A stretch of 64,000 bases of DNA from Usitatibacter rugosus (GTDB taxonomy: Bacteria > Pseudomonadota > Gammaproteobacteria > Burkholderiales > Usitatibacteraceae). A program made the translations under genes and the position numbers. Shown piece after piece: positions 2,369 to 35,897 of the stretch (position 1 is the first letter of the stretch; the number at the start of each line of letters is the position of its first letter). The stretch spans positions 4,433,419 through 4,497,418 of the forward strand of contig NZ_CP053069.1 in NCBI RefSeq assembly GCF_013003965.1, written 5' to 3'. The notes under the pieces are model-generated. The model had not been told where the DNA came from and searched no databases. It saw only the letters and a program-made list of their open reading frames with translations.

Positions 2369-4201
2369 CTATTTCCCCGCATAGCGGCATAGCACGGAGG
2401 GGTCCCACAGGTCGGGCTCGCCGAAGGCGATGCGGACCTTTTCGCCGGGCGCCACCGGCGGGAGGCCGATCGCGCGGCACACCAGCGGCAGGCCCTCGAG
2501 GCGCACGAGCTCCTCGCGGATCACCGTGGCATCCGACTCCGCGATGCCCTCCTGGAGGAGGTAGCGCAGCACCCAGTGGCGCTCGAGCGTGCGCTGGTGC
2601 TCGTTGTACGCCTCGTACACCGTCTCGAAATCGCGGGCGGCGGCGGCGAGGTCGTCCTTCGAGTAGGGAGGCGGCGCGAATCCGAGCGCCGCGACGAGCT
2701 GGCGCTGGTTCGCGAGATCCGAGAAGCGGCGCAGCGGCGAGCTCGACCACGCGTAGTGGGAGACGCCGAGCCATTCGTGGCTACCGGGCTCGACTTCCAT
2801 GCGTGTCTTGATGCCGCGCTGGTTGCGATACATGCCGGTCACGCCGCGCTCGGCGAGCAATTTTCCCCACGTCGCATTCACGTGGATCATCAGCTCGGCC
2901 ACGAGCGTGTCGATGGGCGTGCCGCGCCGCCGCGGCTCGACCGACACGCGGCCGTCGGCGACGCGGATCGTGTAGTCGACGCGATCGCCCTTCTCCTCCT
3001 TGGCGCCGCGCGCGACGCGCAGCCGCCCCGCGAGGCGGTGCAGCAGCAGGAGATCCTCGCCGTGCGCGCCCTCGACGCGGTCCGCGGCGATAGCAGCCTC
3101 GTTCAGGCGCGTCTCGAGCTCGCCGATCCGCAGGTTCGATTCGATCTCGATCCGCTCCACCTTCGATTCGGTGGCGGTGATGTCGAGCGTGGCCGCATCG
3201 AGCGTGAGATAGAGCGAGACGGCCGGGACCGTGCGGCCTTCCGCGAGCGTGGCCGCGGCCACCGCGGCCTCGGGCAGCATCGTGATCTTGCCGCCGGGGA
3301 AATAGGCCGTGGACAGGCGCTCGCGCGCGAGCGCTTCCAGCGGATGCTCGCGGCCGAAGAAGAGCGCGGGCGCCGCGATGTGCACGCCCACGCGCACGGT
3401 GCCGTCGCCGGGACGCTCGACCGAGAACGCGTCGTCGATCTCGGTGGTCTCGTGGTCGTCGATCGAGAAGGCGCGCGCGGTGGCGAGCGAAAGGCCCTCG
3501 GGCTCGGTGAGCGGCGGGACCTCCGCGAAGCCGGTGCCGCGCGGGAAGAACTCGAACGCGAAACGCCGCAGGAAGAAATCCTCGGGGCCGGCGAGCGCCC
3601 CGGCGCGGGCGAGCAGGCGCGGCGGAGCGAGCCCCGCGGCCGTGGCGGCCTGGTCCAGCGCACGCCACTCGAGCGCCATCTTGTCCGGCTTGAAGAGGAG
3701 GGTGTCGAGCTTCGCGGCGATGGCCTCGGGCACGCGGTCCGCGGCGAGCTCGGCGGCCCATGCGTCCACTTGTTCCTGTTGCTTGCGCTTCTTCTCCACG
3801 CCGGCGAGCGCCGCTTTCAGGTTCTCCGCCTGGGCCGCTTGATATCGGCCCTTGCCGCGCTTGTAGAAGAAGATCGGGCTCGCGTGCAGCCGCAGCGCGA
3901 CCGCGGTCGCCTCCACGGGCGAGGGCGCGTGGCCGTAGTAGTCCTTCGCGAGCGCCTCGAAGCCGAACTCGTCGCCGCCGCACACTTCCCAGAGGAATTG
4001 CGGGTCGATCTCCTCGGAGAGCTTCTGCGCATCGGGCATCAGCGCCTGGAGCGCCTGGTTGTCGAAGCGCAGCAGGATGCTCGCGGCCTTCACCTTGGAG
4101 CGCTTGCCGTGCGCGGCTTCCACCTGGAAGGTGGCGCCGGCATCCGCGAGGATCGTGCCGACGCGGAAGCTTCCGTCCTCCTCGAAGAGCACCTGCTTCA
4201 T
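2369..4201 (-). CDS. RNase II/R-family (RNB domain) exoribonuclease
   Basis: This is a 610-residue 3'-5' exoribonuclease-type protein. The RNB domain begins around residue 245 with the catalytic acidic cluster DDHETTEIDD (248-257), which binds the Mg ions used for hydrolysis. Later conserved stretches include RNQRGIKTRM and SSPLRRFSDLANQRQL. The N-terminal 230 residues are less conserved and include a Lys/Gln-rich helix near 130-150. The short C-terminal part ending in CRYAGK may be an S1-like OB fold. The ATG at 4201 overlaps the TGA of the upstream esterase (ATGA), which argues for translational coupling and sets the start. A longer frame upstream exists but runs through the esterase. It is probably a betaproteobacterial VacB/RNase II variant; I cannot assign it as rnb or rnr. 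Confidence 0.85.
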   Translation of the reverse strand: MKQVLFEEDGSFRVGTILADAGATFQVEAAHGKRSKVKAASILLRFDNQALQALMPDAQKLSEEIDPQFLWEVCGGDEFGFEALAKDYYGHAPSPVEATAVALRLHASPIFFYKRGKGRYQAAQAENLKAALAGVEKKRKQQEQVDAWAAELAADRVPEAIAAKLDTLLFKPDKMALEWRALDQAATAAGLAPPRLLARAGALAGPEDFFLRRFAFEFFPRGTGFAEVPPLTEPEGLSLATARAFSIDDHETTEIDDAFSVERPGDGTVRVGVHIAAPALFFGREHPLEALARERLSTAYFPGGKITMLPEAAVAAATLAEGRTVPAVSLYLTLDAATLDITATESKVERIEIESNLRIGELETRLNEAAIAADRVEGAHGEDLLLLHRLAGRLRVARGAKEEKGDRVDYTIRVADGRVSVEPRRRGTPIDTLVAELMIHVNATWGKLLAERGVTGMYRNQRGIKTRMEVEPGSHEWLGVSHYAWSSSPLRRFSDLANQRQLVAALGFAPPPYSKDDLAAAARDFETVYEAYNEHQRTLERHWVLRYLLQEGIAESDATVIREELVRLEGLPLVCRAIGLPPVAPGEKVRIAFGEPDLWDPSVLCRYAGK

Positions 4202-32183: not shown

Positions 32184-34580
32184 CTAGGCGGCCCGCAGGT
32201 TGGCGAGCATCGAGTCGACGGCGCGATCGACCAGCGGAGCGGAATCGAGCAAGCGGGCCTCGCCGCGGCGCAGCTGCTCCGCGAGCGCCTCCGGCGAAAT
32301 CGAGATCGCGTTGCCGACACCGAGCGCGTTGGTGAACAGGTAGACGCCCTTCTGCGGGCTGATCCACGTGAGCCGCGCGCGGACCGGTACGGAGTCCCCG
32401 TTGCGGAACTCCACCCAAGTCCCGCGTGCGAGGTTGGTCCAGACACCGGTCCGCGTGAACACGTTGCGCACTTCGCCCTTCACGCGCGTCTTCTTGAGGC
32501 GGATCTCGTCGACCTGCATGTCGCCCGCCGGCACCACCGAGCGTTCGATCGAGGGCGGCGTGGGGATGTCGGGTTCCGGATCGGCAGCACCGGGCGGCAT
32601 CGCGGCCAGGCCGCGCAGGCCCGCCTTCACGGCCGCCGCGTGGCAGTCGACCAGCTGGCCGAGGAAGACGTCGCGGCCTTCCTCCGTCACTTCGGCGCGC
32701 AGCAAACCGGTCTGCACGTTCTTCAGCATGCCCGGCAGCATCGTGACCAGGCGCTTGCGGTCGTCGGACTGCGCCTTCGGCTCGACGCTCCAGAGGAGGT
32801 CTTCCATCGTGAGCACGAGCTGCTGCCACGGCGGCGAGCCCTCGCCCTCGTTCAGGTGCACGTGCGCCATCGCCTTCACCCACGTGGTCGTGAGCATTCC
32901 GCGCACGGCAGGCGGCACCCACACGCGCGTCTCGAGGCGGCGTGCGATTTCATCTTCGGCGGTGAGGCGCGCGATCTCCTGGCGCTCGCGCTCCTCGATG
33001 TAGCGCGCGGAGCGCTCGACCACCACTTCCTCGTGGCGCTTCTGCTCCTGGAGGAACGCCTCGACGTCGGAACGCAGCGTCTCGAAGAGGCCGATGTCGG
33101 TGTCGAACTCGTCCAACACGCGCTGCACCGTGCGCTCGATCGTGCGCACCGTCGCTTCGCCCTTGGCGCTGCGCTCGTCCAGGCCGATAGCCGCTTCGGC
33201 CATGCAGTCGACGAGCCGGCGCGCCGGATGCTGCTTGGCGGAGAAGAACGCCTTGTCGAGCATCGCGACCTTGAGCAGCGGGATCTGCAGCCGCCCCAGC
33301 ATCGCCTTCACGTTCCCGGGGATGTCCTCGTCGACGAAGATGTAGTCGAAGAGCATCGCGACGATGTCGATCGTCGTGGCATCCACCGTCGGCAGCGCGG
33401 CGACCTGCGCCGAGGCGCGGAGGTTTCGCAGCACGTTGACCAGCTCGCCGATCGGCGCGTCGGTCTCGGCGACGATGTGGTGCATCCGCGTGAGCTCGGC
33501 GAGGAACGTCGGCGGCACCGTGACCGCCGAGCCCGGAGTACCGGGAGTACCGGCCGTGCCCGAAATGCCGCCGAGGATCGCGGGGAATCCCGCCATGCCT
33601 GCCGCACCGCCTCCGCCTCCACCGCCCGCAAAGCCACCACCACCCCCCGAGAAGCCTGTGGCACCTACGGCGCCTGCGCCGGCCGGCATTCCCCCGGCCG
33701 GCGCCGCTCCGCCTCCCTGTGGCGTCCCTAGGAATTTCGCGAGGGTCTGGAAGATGTCCGAGTTGGGTCCGGTCGTGTCGGAACCCGAAGCGGCCGCGCC
33801 GCCGCTGCCGCCGGGCGCAGCGCCCGGGCCGCGGCCCGTGTTCGCCGCCTGCGGGCCGCGCGGATTCTTGCGCGCGACCGGGCGGATCTCGGGAAGGATC
33901 TGGCGCTGCACGAGATGCGCATTCAGGTCGTGGTAGACGCGCTGCAGGTCCACGGCCACGTAGCCTTCGAACTGCTTCAGCAATGCCATGCGCACCTTGA
34001 AGCCGGTGTCGATCTTGTCGCACGCGTCCTTCAGCGCCGCGCACACCGTGGCGGGGCTGAGCGGATTCGCGTCGTCCTTCATCTCGGGGCGCTCGAGCAG
34101 GAAACCGAAGCGCTGCGACAGCGCATAGAGCTCGGCCTCGCACTGGTTGGAGAGCTTGCGGGCCATGTCGGAGGCCTGCAGCGTGCCCTCGAGCTCCTCG
34201 TCGTTCACGAGCGAAAGCTCGGACGAAGGCGCGCCCGCGGCGTTGCTGCCCGGGGCCATGGGCTCGCCGCGCACCTTGCGGTTGAAGAGCTCGATGAAGT
34301 GCGAGCGGAAGGAGGCTTCGATGAGCGGCCGGTTCTCGCGCGCGCTGGCGCGGGCGTCGAGGTAGACGTTCTGGGCTTCGCGGTCGTGGGTCTTCTCGGC
34401 CAGCTCGAAGAGGTCGTCCTCGATGCGGTCCATCATTCCGGAGAGGGAGGCGACGATCCGGGTGAGCGCGAGCTCGCGGCAATCCCGGACGACGCCGGCG
34501 GACTCCTGGGGGCTCAGGCGCGAGCGCGCCCGGGGATGGTCCCCGAGGGAGACGACTTTACCGTTCGTAGCATTGGCCAT
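32184..34580 (-). CDS. DUF1631 protein under a cyclic-di-GMP riboswitch
   Basis: This 798-residue soluble protein starts at ATG 34580. The N-terminal 250 residues and the stretch from about 390 onward are mostly helical and charged, with the DUF1631 look (IVAMLFDYIFVDEDIPGNVKA, LLGRLQIPLLKVAMLD-like helices, SAKQHPARRLVD). Between them lies a low-complexity Gly/Ala/Pro linker of roughly 250-385 that includes runs of seven glycines. The last 130 residues are beta-rich (VRNVFTRTGVWTNLARGTWVEF, RLTWISPQKGVYLFTN) and end in an Arg/Leu helix. The beta-rich end could be a PilZ-like or OB-like module. The biochemical role of DUF1631 is not established. The leader carries a GEMM-I riboswitch, so synthesis should respond to cyclic di-GMP. 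No membrane segment is seen. Confidence 0.85.
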   Translation of the reverse strand: MANATNGKVVSLGDHPRARSRLSPQESAGVVRDCRELALTRIVASLSGMMDRIEDDLFELAEKTHDREAQNVYLDARASARENRPLIEASFRSHFIELFNRKVRGEPMAPGSNAAGAPSSELSLVNDEELEGTLQASDMARKLSNQCEAELYALSQRFGFLLERPEMKDDANPLSPATVCAALKDACDKIDTGFKVRMALLKQFEGYVAVDLQRVYHDLNAHLVQRQILPEIRPVARKNPRGPQAANTGRGPGAAPGGSGGAAASGSDTTGPNSDIFQTLAKFLGTPQGGGAAPAGGMPAGAGAVGATGFSGGGGGFAGGGGGGGAAGMAGFPAILGGISGTAGTPGTPGSAVTVPPTFLAELTRMHHIVAETDAPIGELVNVLRNLRASAQVAALPTVDATTIDIVAMLFDYIFVDEDIPGNVKAMLGRLQIPLLKVAMLDKAFFSAKQHPARRLVDCMAEAAIGLDERSAKGEATVRTIERTVQRVLDEFDTDIGLFETLRSDVEAFLQEQKRHEEVVVERSARYIEERERQEIARLTAEDEIARRLETRVWVPPAVRGMLTTTWVKAMAHVHLNEGEGSPPWQQLVLTMEDLLWSVEPKAQSDDRKRLVTMLPGMLKNVQTGLLRAEVTEEGRDVFLGQLVDCHAAAVKAGLRGLAAMPPGAADPEPDIPTPPSIERSVVPAGDMQVDEIRLKKTRVKGEVRNVFTRTGVWTNLARGTWVEFRNGDSVPVRARLTWISPQKGVYLFTNALGVGNAISISPEALAEQLRRGEARLLDSAPLVDRAVDSMLANLRAA

Positions 34581-34642
34581 GGCGCACGCCTTCGAAAAGC
34601 GGGCAGCCCGGCGAAAACGGAGGACGCGTGGGGATGGCTGGA

Positions 34643-34663
34643 GGGGCCCCATGAAGGGTCCCC
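34643..34663 (-). promoter_or_regulatory. Leader hairpin, candidate riboswitch expression platform
   Basis: Read on the minus strand, GGGGACCC and GGGGCCCC pair around TTCAT, with one A-G mismatch. The hairpin follows directly after the aptamer and precedes the DUF1631 start by about 60 bases. No run of T follows, so it is not a typical intrinsic terminator. It could act in Rho-dependent or translational control, or simply be structure in the leader. Confidence 0.4.
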
Positions 34664-34670
34664 GGGTTCC

Positions 34671-34757
34671 TGGCAATCCCGCTGTCGTAGGGCTCCGACT
34701 GCAGCCCCGTAGACCGGTAACTTTGCGTCCCCACCTTTCGATGGGTTTGCCCTGTTC
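34671..34757 (-). promoter_or_regulatory. Cyclic di-GMP-I (GEMM-I) riboswitch aptamer
   Basis: On the minus strand the leader of the DUF1631 gene shows the conserved GEMM-I blocks in order. They are AGGGCAAACC; a P2 stem CCATC/GGTGG capped by a GAAA tetraloop; GGGGACGCAAAG; ACCGGTCTAC; a P3 stem GGGCT/AGCCC; then GACAGCGGGATTGCC, whose TTGCC closes P1 with GGCAA. The order, spacing and invariant bases fit the family very well. GEMM-I aptamers bind cyclic di-GMP and control genes for motility, surface proteins and signalling. Whether it turns the gene on or off cannot be read from the platform. Confidence 0.88.
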
Positions 34758-34828
34758 AGAAACTGGTGTGCGCCAGTAGGGTCCGTGCTTCCCCCTGGGA
34801 AGGGTGGTGCCGGACCTGTTCTATCTCT

Positions 34829-34845
34829 CGCGAGGATCCCTCGCG
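34829..34845. promoter_or_regulatory. Perfect palindrome in the DUF1631/pfkB divergent region
   Basis: CGCGAGG and CCTCGCG form 7-base perfect arms around ATC. It lies in the 384-base region between the divergent DUF1631 and PfkB starts, upstream of the riboswitch aptamer. It could be an operator for either gene or a leader hairpin. The rest of this region, apart from the aptamer and its hairpin, shows only a TAAAAT box (34922-34927) that may belong to the pfkB promoter. Confidence 0.35.
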
Positions 34846-34964
34846 GAACCCCCGATCGTCAATGCCGCCCGTCAGGCACGCAGGCCCGCACGTCGTATCA
34901 ACGTAAGTGCTTGCTCTCGCTTAAAATCCGCCCTCCCACTCATTTCCGGACGGCGAAAACACCC

Positions 34965-35897
34965 ATGACGATCCTGGTTTGCGGCTCGATGGCGTACGAC
35001 ACCATCATGGTGTTCCAGGATCCCTTCCGGAAGCACATCCTCCCGGACCAGATCCACATCCTGAACGTGTGCTTCGTGGTCCCGACCATGCGCCGGGAGT
35101 TCGGCGGCTGCGCCGGAAACATCGCCTACAACCTCAAGCTCCTGGGCGAGGACCCGGCCATCATGGCCACCGTCGGGCACGACTTCGGCCCCTATGCCAC
35201 CCGGCTCGAGGCCCTGGGCCTCTCCGCCCGCCATATCCGGGTCCTGGAGGACCAGTTCACGGCCCAGGCCTTCATCACCACGGACATCGAGGACAACCAG
35301 ATCACGGCCTTCCACCCCGGGGCGATGGGCAGCTCGCACCTGAACCGGATTTCCGAGGCCTCCGGCGTCCGGCTGGGGATTGTCTCTCCCGACGGGCGGG
35401 ACGGAATGATCGAGCACGCCCGGGGCCTGGCCGAGGCCCGGATCCCCTTCCTGTTCGATCCCGGCCAGGGCCTGCCGATGTTCTCGGGCGAGGAGCTGCT
35501 GGGGATGCTGAAGGGCGCCAAGGCGCTCACGGTGAACGACTACGAAGCGAAGATGTTCGAAGAGAAGACCGGTCGCGGCCTTTCGGAGGTCGCGGGGATG
35601 GTGGAAGCTGTCGTCATGACCCGGGGCGCCGAAGGATCGACCGTGTTCACGGGCGGTCAACAGTTCGACGTGCCGGCCGTTAAGGCGGATGGACTCGTGG
35701 ACCCGACCGGGTGCGGTGACGCCTATCGGGCCGGGCTGTTGCACGGCATCGCGAAGGGCTGGGACTGGAAGCGCTGCGCCCGCCTGGCCTCCGTGATGGG
35801 CTCCATCAAGATCGCCCACCGAGGCGGCCAGAACCACAAGCCGGCGCTCGGCGAGATCGCCCAGCGCTACGAGAAGGCATTCGGCGAAGCGCTCTAG
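34965..35897 (+). CDS. PfkB-family carbohydrate/nucleoside kinase
   Basis: This 310-residue ribokinase-fold kinase has the N-terminal substrate region (CGSMAYDTIMVFQDPF), the first PfkB signature GGCAGNIAYNLKLLGEDPAIMATVG, and the second signature DPTGCGDAYRAGLL with the catalytic Asp252. The sequence resembles the adenosine/sugar-kinase branch that betaproteobacteria usually list as adenosine kinase-like; the substrate is not certain. It is cytoplasmic. It starts at ATG 34965 and is followed 10 bases later by the SlyB-like lipoprotein gene. Confidence 0.88.
   Translation: MTILVCGSMAYDTIMVFQDPFRKHILPDQIHILNVCFVVPTMRREFGGCAGNIAYNLKLLGEDPAIMATVGHDFGPYATRLEALGLSARHIRVLEDQFTAQAFITTDIEDNQITAFHPGAMGSSHLNRISEASGVRLGIVSPDGRDGMIEHARGLAEARIPFLFDPGQGLPMFSGEELLGMLKGAKALTVNDYEAKMFEEKTGRGLSEVAGMVEAVVMTRGAEGSTVFTGGQQFDVPAVKADGLVDPTGCGDAYRAGLLHGIAKGWDWKRCARLASVMGSIKIAHRGGQNHKPALGEIAQRYEKAFGEAL

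Follow-up and report, generated by a model that had tools for sequence, protein, structure and literature searches.

DUF1631 proteins form a large and widespread family that Pfam lists as having unknown function. In Usitatibacter rugosus, one of their genes appeared to lie behind a cyclic di-GMP (c-di-GMP) riboswitch, which raises the question of whether this second messenger controls the gene and what such control would say about the protein. Here, we analyzed a 64,000-nucleotide stretch of the genome (hereafter the window), together with genomes of the same family (Usitatibacteraceae), order (Burkholderiales) and class (Gammaproteobacteria). The riboswitch class itself is already known; the undescribed part is DUF1631 as a conserved target, a pairing with c-di-GMP-I riboswitches that we did not find described in the literature searched.

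Only two Rfam matches were above threshold in the whole-window scan, a tRNA and c-di-GMP-I (GEMM-I, RF01051). The latter, at 34761-34669 on the minus strand, scored 78.2 bits, far over the gathering score of 35 (E = 1.1e-13, covering the entire 64 kb and all 4227 Rfam families), and was a full-length alignment to model positions 1-87 of 87 with zero pairs flagged as non-standard. Thus, the preliminary description, which had read the GEMM-I blocks on the minus strand at 34671-34757, was right about the element, and the match extends slightly beyond the claimed limits. The same description had placed the aptamer in the leader of a DUF1631 gene, and this also holds: 88 nt separate it from the ATG at 34580 of a same-strand gene, whose product matches the DUF1631 family over nearly its full length (residues 26-795 of 798; profile positions 5-741 of 741; gathering score 33.7). 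We adopted the start at 34580 (MANATNGKVVSLGDH...), which is also used by the relative L043; alternative in-frame starts lie further upstream (ATG 34652 and TTG 34676). Both neighbors are on the opposite strand, a convergent DUF3426 gene downstream and a divergent PfkB family gene upstream, and the riboswitch should therefore serve the DUF1631 gene alone. The features of the locus are as follows.

32184..34580, minus strand: DUF1631 gene, 798 aa (Pfam PF07793, 603.2 bits; ORF table)
34581..34587, minus strand: GUGCGCC abutting the start codon, candidate pairing partner of 34774-34768
34587..34594, minus strand: Shine-Dalgarno region CGAAGGCG (sequence reading)
34612..34627, minus strand: putative switch (anti-aptamer) strand GCGUCCUCCGUUUUCG, matched by complementary stretches in the GAAA loop, the P2 3' strand and the GGACGC core
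34666..34672, minus strand: P1 basal stem, 3' strand CAGGAAC (sequence reading)
34669..34761, minus strand: c-di-GMP-I (GEMM-I) riboswitch aptamer (Rfam RF01051; also upstream of DUF1631 in 56 of 80 loci)
34757..34763, minus strand: P1 basal stem, 5' strand GUUUCUG (sequence reading; complementary to 34672-34666 with one G-U pair)
34768..34774, minus strand: GGCGCAC element, separated by 6 nt from the 5' end of the aptamer, complementary to 34587-34581

The identity of the aptamer, its conserved structure, its position and its recurrence with the same gene were computed directly. It is quite likely that this GEMM-I riboswitch lets intracellular c-di-GMP set the level of the DUF1631 protein. 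With regard to how it might do so, neither an intrinsic terminator-like site nor a sigma-70-like promoter was found in 34300-35000. On the other hand, complementarity between the leader and the aptamer was evident. Across 16 leaders from the window's family (L062 was left out because its leader is too short), the strongest signal of the leader-complementarity scan fell on a 17-nt aptamer window comprising the P2 3' strand and the GGACGC core (mean z -1.87, s.e. 0.34), whereas the same window gave a mean z of -0.30 in 41 leaders outside the family. Single leaders reached p <= 0.05 in 8 of 16 cases in the family versus 3 of 41 elsewhere, and p was 0.010 for the window's own switch strand (200 shuffles). 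Shuffled versions of the switch strand were about as complementary to the Shine-Dalgarno region as the strand itself (mean z -0.16, s.e. 0.23).

A second candidate contact involves the GGCGCAC element, which was present 3-8 nt before the aptamer in all ten leaders examined from two genera of the window's family; a pattern search of the loci did not find it at the same place in the family's other genera. In the window it could form seven pairs with the bases preceding the start codon (p = 0.003, 300 shuffles), and the mean z over the ten leaders was -1.85. The same pairing was as significant in L061 (p = 0.003), weaker in six others (p 0.06-0.12) and unconvincing in L017 and L064; since the element is invariant, the pairing is without support from compensatory changes. 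These features suggest that aptamer closure may be coupled to ribosome access in the closest kin. In L062 the leader is only 13 nt long (3988-4000), the P1 3' strand (CAGAAA) directly abuts the Shine-Dalgarno sequence AAGGCGG, and pairing of the GGCGCAC element with bases preceding the ATG is possible. This locus looks like a naturally minimized form of the switch. Compared with c-di-GMP-I riboswitches in general, the window shares the full-length aptamer, conserved core, GAAA-capped P2 and covarying helices, and differs in its family's anti-aptamer strand and GGCGCAC element, which are known here from sequence only.

Because no terminator-like site was found, and the family's leaders contain an anti-aptamer strand and, in close relatives, a 5' element that could pair just ahead of the start codon, control most likely acts on translation and not through intrinsic termination. 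In the mechanism we propose, a single-gene DUF1631 mRNA would carry a c-di-GMP class I riboswitch in its 5' leader; without ligand, the leader strand of the family (34627-34612 in the window) would compete for the P2/core region, and closing of the aptamer would alter access to the ribosome-binding site. As a guess that we place only somewhat above even, the ligand would close this site, and high c-di-GMP would thereby lower DUF1631. The lean toward repression comes from L062, whose short leader sets the Shine-Dalgarno bases against P1, such that a ligand-stabilised P1 should cover the site. A possible but less probable reading keeps the same riboswitch and changes its output: c-di-GMP might switch DUF1631 on, or Rho-dependent termination might take the place of ribosome access. 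Both ON and OFF types of GEMM-I switches are known, and neither folding nor switch-strand complementarity fixed the direction; when the aptamer was enforced or P2 was forbidden in folding, Shine-Dalgarno access was inconsistently affected (lower in 4 and higher in 7 of 16 leaders). Moreover, leaders outside the window's family had no common anti-aptamer platform, and the output may thus vary by lineage. However, the 13 nt of L062 leave scant room for anything beyond control of the ribosome site, and translational control with repression by c-di-GMP is the reading that we prefer.

The nature of the ligand depends on the aptamer core. We aligned 58 aptamer sequences: that of the window, those of 56 loci and a weak minus-strand hit in L081. 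In this alignment, which was fitted to the tested structure and hence favors a covariation outcome, 96.1% of cells were paired, two-sided changes occurred at 14 of 22 base pairs, and none of 500 shuffles reached any of the five fold measures. The aptamer helices are conserved and supported by covariation among orthologues. The guanine in the column that we take to be G20, based on Vc2 numbering, was invariant (58 of 58 rows). Most GEMM-I RNAs are described as selective for c-di-GMP (PMC7266159). Since the core guanine is invariant, the ligand appears to be c-di-GMP. That the aptamer might instead sense the hybrid signal 3',3'-cGAMP is very unlikely: rare GEMM-I variants do so, and GEMM-Ib/3',3'-cGAMP riboswitches share the scaffold of the window aptamer (both PMC7266159), and ligand specificity is beyond proof from sequence, but every row has G and not A at the G20-aligned position, and it is the G20A form that was modelled with cGAMP (PMC6274999).

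We analyzed the occurrence of the pairing between the RNA and DUF1631 at several taxonomic scales. First, 28 genomes of the window's family were searched, several of them incomplete and some only 73-90% complete. The RNA was present in 20, and in 19 of these it lay directly before a DUF1631 match, although in some of the 19 the contig stops inside the DUF1631 gene; the twentieth (G023) has 33 nt after the aptamer before its contig stops. Thus, neither of two possible refutations that had been named, a sub-threshold covariance score and absence from close relatives, was what we observed. The eight family genomes without the RNA had either no DUF1631 or a low-scoring one (337.6 bits at most), and two such copies shared approximately 25% identity with the window protein in the best segment. 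In one family genome (G021:C281, L147), the aptamer is followed after 14 nt by a C-terminal DUF1631 fragment only, which may be due to a deletion within the gene or to faulty assembly. Second, in the near sample of 61 genomes (the window's own plus 60 relatives), RF01051 had 45 matches in 35 genomes and DUF1631 was found in 37 genomes. More than half of the RNA matches (25 of 45) were directly before DUF1631 on the same strand (<=400 nt), and the other 20 were not positioned in this way. Seven DUF1631 matches above 370 bits, two of them partial, had no RNA. The window aptamer is the sole RF01051 match in its 4.56-Mb, one-contig genome, which also has 31 GGDEF matches. A second, distant DUF1631 gene of this genome (G000:C1:2578088-2580184, L150; 356 bits) has no c-di-GMP-I nearby and matches DUF1631 only in Pfam.

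Third, we searched 300 genomes of the order with stricter filters than in the smaller searches, and found c-di-GMP-I in 110 and DUF1631 in 128. Among the RNA matches listed, 39 of 150, spanning 11 families, were located within 2.5 kb upstream of a same-strand DUF1631 gene (37 within 400 nt). The share of DUF1631 matches with the RNA, again among those listed, depended strongly on score: 36 of 64 at >=480 bits (the other 28 had none among the RNA matches listed), 2 of 36 at 380-480 bits and 1 of 50 below 380 bits, the last being part of a split match. This dependence indicates that the RNA goes mainly with one DUF1631 subfamily. Finally, at the class level (184 genomes for each model), the RNA was present in 31 genomes and DUF1631 in 60, and none of the 66 RNA matches showed the pairing outside the order. 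Only two of the 66 shared a contig with DUF1631, the window's own and one in G483, where the two are >130 kb apart on opposite strands. One class genome (G466) had 21 c-di-GMP-I matches on several contigs; the remaining 30 RNA-bearing genomes had 1-5 each.

A survey of related genomes for the same leader, which the preliminary description had suggested, was provided by a scan of GTDB species genomes that yielded 355 stretches encoding a relative. In the best 80 of these 355, the aptamer was upstream of DUF1631 in 56, as detected with a custom covariance model trained on 20 aptamers linked to DUF1631; several of the genomes that supplied them coincide with records among the GTDB loci. Carriers include Methyloversatilis, Sulfuricella, Thiobacillus, Hydrogenophilus, Sulfuritalea and Candidatus Desulfobacillus. 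Among the 24 loci lacking the aptamer, three had little or no upstream sequence, leaving 21 of 77 without it; no Rfam riboswitch of any class was found in these 21. On the DUF1631 tree, a quick build with some long branches, the distribution of the RNA needed 8 changes versus 20.9 with shuffled labels, and 11 loci that grouped together (support 74), including Ectothiorhodospira and Thiohalobacter, all lacked it. The simple reading is that the RNA was gained in the betaproteobacterial lineage and then lost several times. In L065, L067 and L079 the aptamer is closely preceded by a short inverted repeat (TTGAC-N3-GTCAA), perhaps a regulator site. The idea that the element is a functionless relic or a chance resemblance can be dismissed as highly improbable: several lineages do retain DUF1631 without the aptamer (the 21 loci above), but an end-to-end match of 78 bits, compensatory changes in the helices and a place directly before DUF1631 in all RNA-bearing family genomes except the one cut off by a contig end argue against it.

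The window protein itself showed no match to PilZ, GGDEF or EAL in Pfam at E <= 0.1, and no solved structure was found among its sequence relatives at E <= 1. Its AlphaFold model is mostly helical over residues 24-225 and 357-659 and ends in a beta-rich C-terminal domain (residues ~720 to 780), the structural neighbors of which are weak and SH3/Tudor-like. The PacR family protein model (NCBIfam NF058594) gave 243.6 bits against a cut-off of 1200, with the best stretch at residues 389-789, and hence this name does not transfer.

A second link to c-di-GMP came from 16 long DUF1631 frames tested with Pfam. Three-fourths of them (12 of 16) had a DUF1631-GGDEF-EAL architecture: four come from the order (L141, L142, L144 and L145) and eight from as many further genomes of the class (L151-L158). 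These proteins, from twelve genomes of the class, are ~1150-1370 aa long with DUF1631 ahead of GGDEF-EAL, and nine of the twelve have an N-terminal PilZ match at E <= 0.01 (seven pass the Pfam cut-off). The GGDEF and DDFGSG motifs are readable in L141 and L142; by motif pattern, L144 lacks GGDEF and L145 lacks both. The other four frames (L143, L146, L148 and L149) matched DUF1631 alone. Since the frames were picked for length and not for riboswitch presence, the fusions constitute separate evidence for DUF1631 in the c-di-GMP network, to which the protein very probably belongs, and the wider claim of the preliminary description gains independent support. Its more specific wording, a c-di-GMP effector controlled at the RNA level, stands with respect to the c-di-GMP riboswitch on the mRNA, and "effector" overstates the case. 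As relatives carry DUF1631 before GGDEF-EAL, mostly behind a PilZ-like domain, we infer that it may serve this network as an output or adaptor module. The window protein has the DUF1631 domain in common with the fusions, and differs from them in having no PilZ, GGDEF or EAL match, its predicted c-di-GMP input being on the mRNA.

Tentatively, and as an idea that we consider plausible but short of probable, DUF1631 could be a general c-di-GMP output module with an interchangeable input, which would be an RNA aptamer for stand-alone betaproteobacterial copies, or GGDEF-EAL and mostly a PilZ-like sensor within the polypeptide for paralogues across the class. For the former, a leader strand would compete for the aptamer core in the window's family, and the closest kin would tie the ribosome-binding site to the conserved 5' element. 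The conserved riboswitch and the domain fusions thus provide two independent reasons for testing DUF1631 in the c-di-GMP network, and they specify which signal to vary, namely c-di-GMP. With its single c-di-GMP-I match, the genome of U. rugosus offers a clean system for such a test.
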